Below, piece after piece: positions 2,214 through 43,841 of a stretch of 64,000 nucleotides of DNA. The translations under genes and the position numbers were made by a program. Position 1 is the first letter of the stretch, and the number at the start of each line of letters is the position of its first letter. This DNA comes from Bacteroidota bacterium (GTDB taxonomy: Bacteria; Bacteroidota; Ignavibacteria; Kapaibacteriales; UBA2268), in NCBI GenBank assembly GCA_021780815.1, contig JAJXYC010000012.1:25001-89000 (forward strand), given 5' to 3'. Under the pieces are notes generated by a model. That model did not search any database and was not told the DNA's origin. It saw only the letters and a list, made by a program, of their open reading frames with translations.

Positions 2214-5200
2214 ATGAAAAAAACATTTTTACTTGCTTTAATCATTGGAATTATATTATTAGTCAATTCCTGTGACTGGTTCAAAAGTAATAATCCAGTT
2301 TCACCTACGGAAGATAATAAATTGCAATTTTCTGAAGAAAAGACATTAATTAATAATACTTTTTCTGCAGGACAGACTATTACTGTAACAACGGGAGACA
2401 ACTCAGTGAATGGAATGAAAATTGTAATACCTGAAAATAGCTTTACCGGATATAAACTTTTCAAAATATCATCATACAAAATTACAAAAAATAATTTTGG
2501 AGAGTATGTAAATCCAATTTCTCCCATATTTAAAATAACCAGTAATGGAACATATATAGATGGTATTTATGAAGTTACAATACCAGTGAAGATAGAGACT
2601 GGTTCATTTCCACTCGTTTTTATTTACGATGAACAAAACAATAAATTAGAACCATTGCCTGTTCAAGGTTTTACCAGTAACTCTGTTACATTTACTACAA
2701 GGCATTTTGCTACTTCTAAAATTATTCCTTCTAATAATAAAACTGCACCATTAATTCAGGCAGATGAAAATTATTCAATATTATTTGTTAGTTCACTTCA
2801 AGAATCAATTATCAATCAAAAAGCAATAATCTCAAGTGGTTTCAAACCAGGTACAGATGACTGGGAATTTCCAAACTATGGTTCTTTCATCGTTCCTGGT
2901 GGTCAATGTTCTGGTCAAAATATGGCAGCATTCTGGTATTATTTTGAGAAAAAATTGAAGGGAAAGCCAAATTTATATAATACTTTAAGTCAGTTAGATA
3001 ATATTTGGCAGGAAAATAACAGAGGCTACAGATTTTGTTCGGTTATACATTCTGATCTTTCTTGGGATGGAACTTTCATTAATTTTTTCGATAAATACAT
3101 TGATAAAAATCAAGAATTAGACAGATTAAAATTTTATATGATTGCAGGAGCAATGCTTGTTACAGGGGAGCCACAAGGTATTGGAATTTACCGAGAAACA
3201 GGAACAAAGCCAGATGGTTCCCCAACTTATGGAGGGCATGATTTAATTTGCTATCAATTGGAACCAGCTTCTGGTAAATTGTATATTTCGGATCCTAATA
3301 CTCCTGGGATGCAACAATCAATTAATTTTACAAATAATAAATTTTCCCCTTATAAAGCAAAATTAAATGCTAACGAAACTTCGGACAAAGAATATAAGTA
3401 TATAACTTACTATGCTAAAACTGCATATATTGAATGGGATAAAATTGCTACAAGGTGGAATCAGGTAGAGGATTATACAATTGGTAATGATAAGTTTCCT
3501 GGATACCAAATTTGGTCGCCAGATAAAGGTGGATTTTATCTGCAAGATGAATTTATTTATAATGTAGATACTTTGAATATTATGGCAGAAACACCTACGG
3601 TTGATTTATATTATGTTAGCCTCTTCAATACTTATAACAAAAAGTGTTCAAAAATTACTGTTTTTGATAATAATGGTAATAAAATCTACAATGGTGGTTC
3701 TAATTACAAGCTTACATTTCCAAAACCTGGTACTTATAAGTTCGGAATATTGGTAGAAGGATTCAAAGAAGAAAGTAAATTCAGCAATGGGGATTATATT
3801 CCTTTATATATTGACTATAAATGGATTACAATAAATTATCAAACATATAAAGTTACCATTATTCCTAATGATTTAAAGGGTGATGTAAATAAAGAATACA
3901 CATGGAATTTGGATATTTCATCTATACCTACTACTTTGAAATATTATATAAAGTGGAATTTTAATGAGGGGAAGGGAGAAATCCGGAAGGATAATGTAAA
4001 TTACATTACAAATACATTTACGATGGGGGGAAATTACAAAATTGTTGCAACAATTTATGATGCAAGCAGTAATAAAGCATTAGCAAAAGACAGTGCAACA
4101 GCCGAAATTGCTGGTTCGGGTGGAATTTCTCCAAATTATGGTCCGAAAGGGCAAACAATAATAATTAAAGGAAGCGGATTTAAAGATACTAAATATTCTG
4201 AAGTGTCTGCTACATTGCACTGGGATATCGATTCGACCAATCATTATTACAGAGCATTGCAAACAACAGTAATTGATGACAATACTCTACAGGCAATTGT
4301 TGCTGATGAAACTAAAAATTTCATTGGTAAAGTTTATATTAAAGTTCGTAAATATGATAGCCCTAATATGAAATATGACTGGGTGGGTGCTTGGGAATAT
4401 GAAATTGTAGAAATAAAACCAACTTCTGTGCAACCAGACACTCTTGTACATAATGCTCAATTTACTATATCGGGCAGTGGCTTTGGTGAGAAATTTACAA
4501 CGGATAATGTATTGTTGGATGCTACTCCAGTAAGTCAAATAATTTCCTGGACAAATACACAAATTGTGTGTGTGGTACCAGAAATGAGTTATTCTGGTAG
4601 TCATTATCTTTATATTGCAAAAAGTTGCAATGATATGTACAATTGTTTTACTAGTCAGATTAAACAAATAGATTGGGAATCCGCACCAGTGGACATAATT
4701 GATTTGATGAAATATGCAGTAAAGGAAGGCTTTGGTTCGTTGAATGCCAAAATGATATGCGATTACAAGGCATATAATGATAAAGGCGAAGTTACAAACG
4801 AAAGTCAAAGTGCGCATAATGTAGATGAATATTTATATAACACTTATACTACAGATGAATTTACTACTGATGGCAGGAATTTCACTGCAGTAGTTTCGCG
4901 CGGCTCTAATGGCAGGTTGGAATATCAAGGAACAATTTCTTCTGATGGAAAGAAGTTAGAGACTGCTACATTCATAAATTATGATCCAAATGGAAAAATT
5001 CTTCTAAAAATGGTATTGAATAATTTACCTTTAACTAAATGGGTGAAAAATTCTTCAACAGTTTCGTGGATATATTCTAGTTCCACAGATGGTAAACCAT
5101 ATATTTCTGATTTTTATATGGCAACATACAGTAGCACAGGAAATGTGCAGACAGACGCAACAATGGTATCGTGCAGTTCAGTAGCATTTGATTACCAATT

Positions 5201-41851: not shown

Positions 41852-43039
41852 TTAATTTTTCTCATGATCTATTTGTTTATTAAAATTAAATGGCACTGGT
41901 GCAATTCCAATTCCATATTTTTTGAATAATTTCTTGACAAAATTCTTTGATGTTTTATTTACATTGAATAAATCTAATGTCTTGATATATTCAATTTCAT
42001 GAGGATTTTCTTTTAGGTAAGCTGAAATTGCTACGGTTTCGGCAAAACAACCATAAAGTACATTTTCTGTTAATCCGCATATTTCAGGATTGAAGAAAAA
42101 TTCAAGTCCATTTTCGATATAAGCATTTCCACCATCTTGACGGTAAATGTTTTTGCATTTGTAATATTCTTCTTCGGGGAAGCCATAAGGAACCGCAACA
42201 TCAACAACATGAATTGTCTGTCCATTTTGAATATTTTTCAGATTGTCGAAAGTAATCAAACTTGATGGATTATGAGTGCAATTTATGATTGAACGAATTT
42301 TGTCAATGTCATTAATTTCGATACTTTTTATATCAGGAAATACCTTGATATTTCTTGTTGAAATCAATTCTTTCAAATCTTTTGTATGATTACTGATAAT
42401 GATAATTTGCTCATCAGACAAGTTTTTTTCGAGCAAATATTCAAGACTATCAAGCCCCAACAATCCAAGACCGTTAATAATTACTATACCTTCATTGTCA
42501 TTCCCGTGAAAACGGGAATCCACTCTCACATTCCAAAGATTGATTCCCTCTTTCGAGGGAATGACATCAAAATCATGTTTAGAAATTATACCAGCTTTTT
42601 GAATTATTGAATCAATTTCCATATTCAGAATTGCGGCAGTGCCGTTATCGCCGTTTGTAAAAAGGATTTCGGGATAAAGCTCACGCAAAGTAAAACCGGA
42701 ATTGTCAAGATGACCATCCCAAGCTACTTTTAATTCTATTTCCTTGCCGAAAAGACGTTTAGTTGAAGCGGCAAGAAGAACTACATTTACTTTAAGATTT
42801 TCAATTGCATATTTTAAACCCTGAAGGAATTGCTTACGAGCTTTAATAATGCCGTTTTTACATGCGCAATCTTCTGGGAAATTGTCTAATGCAATCAAAC
42901 CTCCATTTGTAGTCTCTTTATATTCTAAAAATATCGGTTTATAAAAGGAATCCATAATTGGATTTCCCTGACTAATTTTAAAATCATTTTGATTTTTAAT
43001 ATTTAACAAATTTGAAAAGAACACATATTCATTTTTCAT
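41852..43039 (-). CDS. Rossmann-fold dehydrogenase-like protein interrupted by a dispersed repeat
   Basis: The 395-residue soluble protein has a dinucleotide-binding-like segment IVIINGLGLLGLDSLEYLL around residues 197-215, then strands such as QIIIISNHTKDL and SIINCTHNPSSL, reminiscent of shikimate/aminoacid dehydrogenase-type domains; I do not recognise the exact family. Just before the Rossmann segment a palindromic element contributes about 23 foreign residues (IPSKEGINLWNVRVDSRFHGNDN). I prefer the ATG at 43039; a GTG at 43081 has AGGAGG 7 nt away, but it lies inside a terminator hairpin. The C-terminal half includes CFAETVAISAYL. Substrate unknown. Confidence 0.6.
   Translation of the reverse strand: MKNEYVFFSNLLNIKNQNDFKISQGNPIMDSFYKPIFLEYKETTNGGLIALDNFPEDCACKNGIIKARKQFLQGLKYAIENLKVNVVLLAASTKRLFGKEIELKVAWDGHLDNSGFTLRELYPEILFTNGDNGTAAILNMEIDSIIQKAGIISKHDFDVIPSKEGINLWNVRVDSRFHGNDNEGIVIINGLGLLGLDSLEYLLEKNLSDEQIIIISNHTKDLKELISTRNIKVFPDIKSIEINDIDKIRSIINCTHNPSSLITFDNLKNIQNGQTIHVVDVAVPYGFPEEEYYKCKNIYRQDGGNAYIENGLEFFFNPEICGLTENVLYGCFAETVAISAYLKENPHEIEYIKTLDLFNVNKTSKNFVKKLFKKYGIGIAPVPFNFNKQIDHEKN
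42498..42565. repeat. Palindromic dispersed repeat inside a coding region
   Basis: The outer arms GTCATTCCC and GGGAATGAC enclose two smaller hairpins (TTCCCGTGAAAACGGGAA and ATTCCCTCTTTCGAGGGAAT). It is in frame with the surrounding gene and encodes the DSRFHGNDN peptide known from similar repeats in many genomes. It is related to the element at 11832-11923. Confidence 0.85.
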
Positions 43040-43062: not shown

Positions 43063-43090
43063 AAAAAAAGGGCATCTTCACAATTTGCCC
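43063..43090 (-). terminator. Intrinsic terminator at the end of the structured RNA
   Basis: On the minus strand GGGCA (43090-43086) pairs with TGCCC (43074-43070) and is followed by seven T residues. It could end a separate small RNA or act as an attenuator ahead of the gene starting at 43039. Confidence 0.75.
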
Positions 43091-43200
43091 TCCTGTTAGG
43101 TATCGCCAAACACCCGTGCATAAAGCAAAAAGGAAAACGCCCCGTTTCTTGGGGCGTGCCTTCTTACCGTTCTATGCACTTAAAATTGGCGATTTTAACA
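43063..43200 (-). ncRNA. Candidate structured RNA or riboswitch-like leader
   Basis: On the minus strand a rod of nested helices can be drawn: CGCCAA (43191-43186) with TTGGCG (43109-43104); GTGCATA (43179-43173) with TATGCAC (43122-43116); AAGG with CCTT; and ACGCCCC (43157-43151) with GGGGCGT (43143-43137) closed by an AAGAAA-type loop. A terminator hairpin follows at 43090-43063. The segment is clearly more GC-rich than its surroundings. It matches neither tmRNA, RNase P, SRP RNA nor any riboswitch consensus that I know. The ends are estimates. Confidence 0.55.
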
Positions 43201-43362
43201 AGAGAACGAAAGTAAGCAACGCTTACAATATATAATTTTAACTGTTTTGTTCTATTTAAGTCATTTTACTTTTCATATTAAAAGTTGCAAAAATCAATTC
43301 ATACAAAATTAAGTGTTTTTTAGCAAATATTGAAACTTATTTCTCAATATTCCAAAAAAAAC

Positions 43363-43587
43363 TTAAAGTCCTAAATATTCTTCAACAGTTATCCCGATTT
43401 GATTGATTATTGCTCTTAAAACACCTTTTGAAATAGGTTTCGAATGATTCGGAATTGTAGTTCTAAGCCTTTTTTCGGAATTATACCAGATTTCATGGCT
43501 TCCTTTTGCCTGTCTATCAAATTCAAAACCAGATTTCCTGATTTTTTTGATAAGTTCTTTATAAGTAGTCTCATGTAATTTACTCAT
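43363..43587 (-). CDS. hicA: HicA-type mRNA interferase toxin
   Basis: The 74-residue dsRBD-like protein has TYKELIKKIRKSGFEFDRQAKGSHEIWYN, with the catalytic His31 in the GSH motif, then TTIPNHSKPISKGVLRAIINQIGI. HicA degrades mRNA until neutralised by HicB. Its start overlaps the antitoxin stop by 4 nt (ATGA), so they are coupled. The order antitoxin-toxin is the reverse of E. coli hicAB but common elsewhere. Confidence 0.92.
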   Translation of the reverse strand: MSKLHETTYKELIKKIRKSGFEFDRQAKGSHEIWYNSEKRLRTTIPNHSKPISKGVLRAIINQIGITVEEYLGL

Positions 43588-43841
43588 AGAGTCACTGCAA
43601 CTGGAATTCTGAATTTTGATATTTTATTTTTTTTATTAAGTTGTTTCAAGATTTTGTCGGGTAATGGATCATTATGCTCAATGTAAGATTCAATTATTTT
43701 TCTTGCTACGTCTTGAGCAATTTCCAGAGCCTCCTGATATGACCTGCCTTCTGCAAGCAAACCAGGTAGGTCATCCGACAATGCTAAGAAACTGCCTTCT
43801 TCCAAAGGTTCAATTTTAATATCAATTACAATATTATCCAT
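43584..43841 (-). CDS. hicB: HicB-type antitoxin
   Basis: The 85-residue protein has the partial RNase H fold of HicB: IDIKIEPLEEGSFLALSDDLPGLLAEGRSYQEALEIAQDVARKIIESY. The degenerate active site and the charged C-terminal extension (LNKKNKISKFRIPVAVTL) are normal. There is no clear HTH or ribbon-helix-helix, so transcriptional autoregulation is uncertain. It precedes hicA in the same operon. Confidence 0.9.
   Translation of the reverse strand: MDNIVIDIKIEPLEEGSFLALSDDLPGLLAEGRSYQEALEIAQDVARKIIESYIEHNDPLPDKILKQLNKKNKISKFRIPVAVTL

Follow-up and report, generated by a model that had tools for sequence, protein, structure and literature searches.

The locus and its RNA element

The window, i.e., the whole stretch of DNA that was analyzed, comprises 64,000 nucleotides of a Bacteroidota contig (JAJXYC010000012.1). 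On its minus strand, an RNA element of ~160 bases (164 nt, positions 43226-43063) ends ~25 nt before the ATG at 43039 that begins a gene for a 395-aa protein, for which a Pfam search gave no matches. The RNA is directly preceded by HicA/HicB-like toxin-antitoxin genes (43363-43841), and toxin-antitoxin-like upstream neighbors are frequent at other loci (e.g., L013, L033, L034, L038, L041, L042, L056, and L058). Within the downstream gene, the palindromic repeats CCCGTGAAAACGGG and CCCTCTTTCGAGGG (42494-42580) are in frame and encode ...RVDSRFHGNDN...; since homologues align on both sides of this region and not across residues ~154-182, it looks like an in-frame repeat insertion.

An initial annotation of the window had placed a minus-strand, rod-like structure and a terminator at 43063-43200, and both are present there. 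The predicted folding energy of this 138-nt stretch was -60.2 kcal/mol, vs. -34.3 +/- 3.5 kcal/mol for dinucleotide shuffles (z = -7.3; 0 of 200 shuffles), and that of the full 164 nt (43226-43063) was -69.7 kcal/mol, vs. -40.8 for shuffled sequences (z = -7.0). The place was right and the length was not, as the conserved element extends ~26 nt beyond that stretch on its 5' side, beginning with a GUAAGC...GCUUAC hairpin (P0). Likewise, the terminator had been described as a separate module 14-40 nt beyond the rod; however, its 5' arm, AGGGC, is shared with P1, the outermost helix, whose 3' end it forms. Finally, the GTG in the terminator loop is probably not a start codon, since orthologous genes begin later, at the position of ATG 43039. 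The features of the locus, all on the minus strand, are as follows.

43063..43226, minus: whole RNA element, P0 hairpin to terminator U-tract (covariance models, common homologue extent, fold z)
43212..43226, minus: P0 hairpin, GUAAGC-GUU-GCUUAC (94% of cells paired in 70 family copies; two-sided changes in 4 of 5 pairs)
43196..43207, minus: P1 5' strand, GUUCUCUUGUUA (two-sided changes in 11 of 12 pairs; cognate test, t = -30)
43087..43098, minus: P1 3' strand, UAACAGGAGGGC (its terminal bases, AGGGC, are also the terminator 5' arm)
43186..43193, minus: P2 5' strand, AUCGCCAA (97.9-98.6% paired; two-sided changes in 7 of 7 model pairs)
43102..43109, minus: P2 3' strand, UUGGCGAU (covariation)
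43172..43179, minus: P3 5' strand, GUGCAUAG (covariation)
43116..43125, minus: P3 3' strand, CUUUAUGCAC (covariation)
43138..43156, minus: P4 hairpin, CGCCCC-loop-GGGGCG, with flanks AAGAAGG:CCUUUUU (96.7-97.9% paired)
43063..43091, minus: local terminator hairpin, AGGGCA...UGCCCU, then U7 (sequence, predicted fold, 85% paired)
43203..43218, minus: helix X 5' strand, UGCUUACUUUCGUUCU (cognate t -10; -6 in distant lineages)
43157..43174, minus: helix X 3' strand, UAGAACGGUAAGAAGGCA (cognate tests)
43133..43143, minus: helix W 5' strand, the P4 3' strand plus UUUUC (95.9% paired; cognate t -14 and -5.6)
43069..43079, minus: helix W 3' strand, the terminator 3' arm, GAAGAUGCCCU (cognate test, pair counts)
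43112..43115, minus: stem Z 5' side, GGGU (97% paired; UA to CG exchange at one pair)
43098..43101, minus: stem Z 3' side, ACCU (97% paired)
41852..43039, minus: downstream gene, 395 aa (orthologue comparison)

The initial annotation had also stated that the structure fits no known RNA family and had proposed a comparison with Rfam, which bore the statement out. When Rfam 15 (4227 families) was searched with the curated gathering cut-off as the threshold, only rRNA was found in the window; the best score within the element was 19.9 bits against a cut-off of 50, and lenient E-values (up to 10) gave nothing meaningful for it. The element was equally without an Rfam 15 match at 38 further loci, nearly all with distant copies, and a search for tRNA and tmRNA found none. 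No description of the RNA was found in the open-access literature searched. The family is thus previously uncatalogued relative to Rfam 15 and that literature.

Homologues and genomic context

Among 60 relatives searched by blastn, full-length copies were 70-86% identical and numerous per genome within the same family, and no convincing copy was found outside it. Two covariance models were then used, R1 from an alignment of 38 homologues and R2 from 100 copies, which scored the window's element (43063..43226) at 166 and 153 bits, respectively. With R1, we found a single copy in the genome that contains the window; in its family, 16 of the 54 genomes carried 81 copies between them (maximum 15 per genome), and at the class level copies occurred in 68 of 391 genomes. 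With R2, copies were present in 52 of 395 genomes of a Bacteroidota sample, families outside the class included, and plasmid copies were confirmed in Chryseobacterium shandongense (65.8 bits) and Rhizosphaericola mali (70.5 bits). Among named genomes, those with pattern matches were Kapabacteria-type MAGs (Candidatus Kapaibacterium, Ignavibacteria, and Chlorobi-group bacteria). Searches of phage and viral collections confirmed no copies; the pattern matches L106 and L110-L112 failed the covariance models. Occurrence is patchy within genera, and truncated copies exist. At one locus (L042; G019:C90:1-5400), a full copy and two 5' fragments (3442-3517 and 2294-2318) are spaced ~1 kb apart amid toxin-antitoxin-like genes, an arrangement that looks like insertion or duplication of gene modules along with the 5' part of the RNA.

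The nearest downstream gene was co-oriented in 122 of the 127 copies with a readable downstream gene, at a median distance of 55 nt from the element, which is the position of an attenuator in the 5' leader of a gene. Homologues of the window's 395-aa protein occur in 8 of the 54 family genomes, all eight of which carry the RNA, and the RNA was directly upstream in 6 of 9 copies of the gene. The downstream genes are mutually unrelated, mostly exported or accessory, and share no common metabolic theme. By a simple rule, a signal peptide or lipobox was found in 74 of 118 nearest downstream proteins vs. 16 of 114 upstream proteins. Sequence reading without a family search pointed to lipoproteins, secreted, restriction-modification-like, CheB/CheR-like, and response-regulator-like proteins, while family searches identified oxidoreductases (NAD_binding_4) and methyltransferases. 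Distant families also contributed SusC/RagA TonB-linked receptors, the two tested proteins matching TIGR04056 (E about 1e-187). At seven loci of distant Bacteroidota (L208, L210, L211, L213, L214, L216, and L218), a gap of 220-380 nt separates the RNA from a downstream SusC/RagA-type gene, two of these receptors being those confirmed by family search, and XRE-like or other HTH-like genes are divergent on the opposite side. In the window's own family, three kinds of downstream gene recur, encoding a Rossmann-like protein (L002, L003, L058, L065, and L171), a NAD_binding_4/thioester-reductase-like protein (L014, L051, L092, and L169), and a methyltransferase with a GYPGD motif (L061, L073, L175, and L176); these enzymes might serve one lipid or signal pathway.

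A promoter box (TAnnTTTG) occurred within the 80 nt upstream of the element in 17 of 20 distant copies, which are partly interrelated, where 1.3 would be expected from shuffles; in most copies having the box, it stands 26-31 nt upstream. In the window's family, the upstream region has only an A/T-rich conserved stretch, and a sigma-70 style promoter in the window did not score above shuffles.

Core helices and competing pairings

The homologues displayed both conservation and covariation, in plentiful copies. In 61 class-level copies outside the R1 building set, standard pairs filled 93.8% of P0-P4 cells, two-sided changes occurred in 37 of 38 pairs, and two-sided cells numbered 656 vs. 190 in shuffled alignments, while in 70 family copies 95.5% of cells were paired and two-sided cells numbered 554 vs. 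146, figures that are inflated because fitting to the P0-P4 model shaped these alignments (A2-A4). Slid structures paired in 35-42% of cells, and none of 500 shuffles reached the observed level of covariation. Helices P1 (12 bp), P2 (7-8 bp), P3, and P4, as deduced from these comparisons, constitute the conserved core of the RNA structure. Conserved AAA and GGU/ACC bases flank P2 and stem Z in the alignment. The arms of P1 and P3 vary in sequence between copies within one genome with pairing always kept, and cognate pairing of these arms was better in 97-99% of within-genome comparisons. Such copy-specific arms would prevent pairing between copies. The P4 hairpin together with UUUUCCUUUUU (43137-43157, minus strand) itself scores as terminator-like and might therefore act in pausing or early termination.

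Since AGGGC at the 3' end of P1 is also the terminator 5' arm, P1 and the terminator are mutually exclusive. Two further helices compete with the core. In helix X, which competes with P0/P1, the 5' region of P0/P1 is paired with the segment that separates P3 from P4; helix W pairs the P4 3' strand with the terminator 3' arm and ends at the U-tract (mean 10.7 bp). In a cognate test, in which the duplex stability of two segments from one copy is compared with that of segments from different copies, t values for 100 copies were -30 for P1, -10 for X, -14 for W, -5 for the terminator, and -1.8 for a control helix, V, and those for the 20 copies outside the class were -20, -6.0, -5.6, -1.5, and -0.2; these values are descriptive because the copies are not independent. 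Comparison of copies within the same genome, which eliminates lineage effects, favored X in 10 of 12 genomes, W in 9 (with three at zero), and V in 6. Helix V, which would join the P4 5' strand to the terminator 5' arm, was accordingly not supported. Counted on the family alignment, W was 95.9% paired (two-sided cells, 34 vs. 7.4 shuffled), X was 81.4% paired (15 vs. 7.7), and the local terminator was 85.1% paired (18 vs. 6.9); X, W, and Z lie outside the fitted model, and their figures are uninflated. By these comparisons, co-evolution extends to X and W, the helices incompatible with P0/P1 and P4. The window's family has both a terminator and an exclusive antiterminator helix, P1, as an attenuator does, and each is supported by covariation. 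The local terminator hairpin is weak in copies from distant lineages, where no significant co-evolution of its arms was seen (t = -1.5).

Two small stems flank P2. Stem Z (RGGY:RCCU) flanks its 3' strand, and one of its pairs was UA in 38 copies and CG in 21, with one unpaired (U-A in 81 and C-G in 14 in a larger set). Stem Y (AAAA:UUUU) flanks the P2 5' strand and is 91% paired; being mostly invariant, it is weakly supported. Stem Z, and possibly Y, makes it plausible that P2 is formed by the loops of two hairpins in contact with each other.

In minimum-energy folds of the growing window transcript, X appeared in RNAs of 60-108 nt and was later displaced by P3, P2, and P1. Fold 1 (P1, P3, and P4) was more stable than Fold 2 (X and W) in 97 of 100 copies, by a median of 12.7 kcal/mol in a nested calculation that leaves the P2 loop-loop contact in Fold 2 uncounted. 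Fold 2 would therefore need kinetic trapping or a partner, and in this model it would be an early or assisted state. Helix W can be completed only after synthesis of the last arm, a late point for deciding on termination.

A putative switch-type leader and its alternatives

These results suggest that the element is probably a cis-acting leader, of a new and Bacteroidota-wide family, that controls transcription of the next gene by choosing between two folds. We infer that the element is transcribed and that the choice could proceed as follows. In Fold 1, the terminator 5' arm would be held in P1 and polymerase would read through (ON). In Fold 2, X would form first on the nascent RNA and block P1, and the terminator 3' arm would then pair either locally or, as W, with the freed P4 3' strand, just before the U-tract (OFF); either W or the local hairpin could be the working terminator. 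P2 would connect the two halves, possibly through the contact between the Y and Z hairpins, and its conserved flanks (AAAA, GGGU, and ACC) are the best candidate site for a small molecule or protein that biases the choice. A more specific version, to which we lend only tentative credence, is a phylum-wide, riboswitch-like class, with the Y-Z loop-loop contact and the strand-exchange terminator W, that gates a large set of unrelated exported and horizontally spread genes in response to one common cue, e.g., a second messenger or a signal from the envelope or from starvation.

In place of a small molecule, a protein could read the leader, through processive antitermination or as an RNA-binding regulator. 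This special case of the switch-type leader would suit the accessory and unrelated nature of the downstream genes, as in RfaH- or LoaP-type antitermination, and the conserved internal-loop bases could form a protein site. However, NusG paralogues do not track the RNA: the RNA-rich genomes G013, G019, and G020 have a single NusG, whereas genomes with two are mostly without the RNA. Antitermination by a NusG paralogue of the LoaP/RfaH type was rejected for this reason, and reading by a protein in general seems rather doubtful. The main rival lies outside this scheme. The initial annotation had left open an attenuator or riboswitch acting on the Rossmann-type gene and a stand-alone small RNA, and the covariation and cis placement favor the former. 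A trans-acting sRNA of ~160 nt with its own promoter and terminator, upstream of genes by chance, would explain the 3' hairpin and U-tract and the promoter box at a fixed distance in distant copies, and P4 and the bistable core could support pairing in trans. Such an RNA would have no need of a P1 built to unmake its terminator, however, and the arms of P1 and P3 vary from copy to copy; nor would chance readily place 122 of 127 copies just upstream of a co-oriented gene or keep the RNA directly upstream of homologous genes (6 of 9 copies for the window's gene). We regard it as unlikely.

The scattered, patchy, and numerous copies per genome, the truncated copies and 5' fragments in one contig, and the adjoining accessory and toxin-antitoxin genes are also what a recombination site or mobile cassette (integron attC-like or MITE-like) would leave in DNA, with no RNA involved. 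Yet copies only 70-86% identical have retained complementary changes in every helix, and they nearly always point toward a gene. An integron attC site, recognized by GTTRRRY/RYYYAAC core sites together with an integron integrase in the genome, was rejected, as no integrase scored above the curated cut-off (integrase_gron) in any of the 54 family genomes and conserved core-site ends are absent from the alignment. We consider an origin of this kind improbable. Least credible by far, to the point of being negligible, is an ordinary terminator of the HicA/HicB-like pair with a rod structure formed by chance; the pair is indeed upstream on the same strand (43363-43841), but the structure is kept phylum-wide beside different upstream genes, and covariation of this degree arose in 0 of 500 shuffles.

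A structured RNA found in about one in eight sampled Bacteroidota genomes, with up to 15 copies each, is yet missing from Rfam 15. It offers a handle on the control of surface and accessory genes in Bacteroidota, SusC/RagA receptors included; its complete two-state pairing can be read from alignments, and the copies within one genome form a natural series in which to search for the trigger.

Several motifs of Bacteroidota and Chlorobi have been reported, namely Flavo-1 (RF01705), Pedo-repair (RF01715), 6S-Flavo (RF01685), Bacteroid-trp (RF01692), and Chlorobi-RRM (RF01697) (PMC2864571). Like the present element, they are uncharacterized or leader-type RNAs of the same phylum group; however, no scanned copy matches their Rfam 15 models. 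In Flavobacterium psychrophilum, a related lineage, 64 structured 5' regions have been described, many without known function (PMC9723704). The element itself precedes accessory or surface-related genes. So do the put, EAR, RfaH-ops, and LoaP antitermination leaders, which stand upstream of accessory or surface-related operons, but the element differs from them in having its own terminator and no NusG paralogue that tracks it. In purine-class riboswitches, a closing P1, whose 3' strand overlaps a terminator arm, bounds a junction at a short distance from the gene, and most metabolite riboswitches regulate genes that share a metabolic theme. The element resembles purine-class attenuating riboswitches in the overlap of its P1 3' strand with the terminator arm, its possible loop-loop contact, and its closeness to the gene, whereas it departs from attenuating riboswitches in the metabolically unrelated genes that it would regulate, the lack of an Rfam match, and the additional co-evolving helices X and W.
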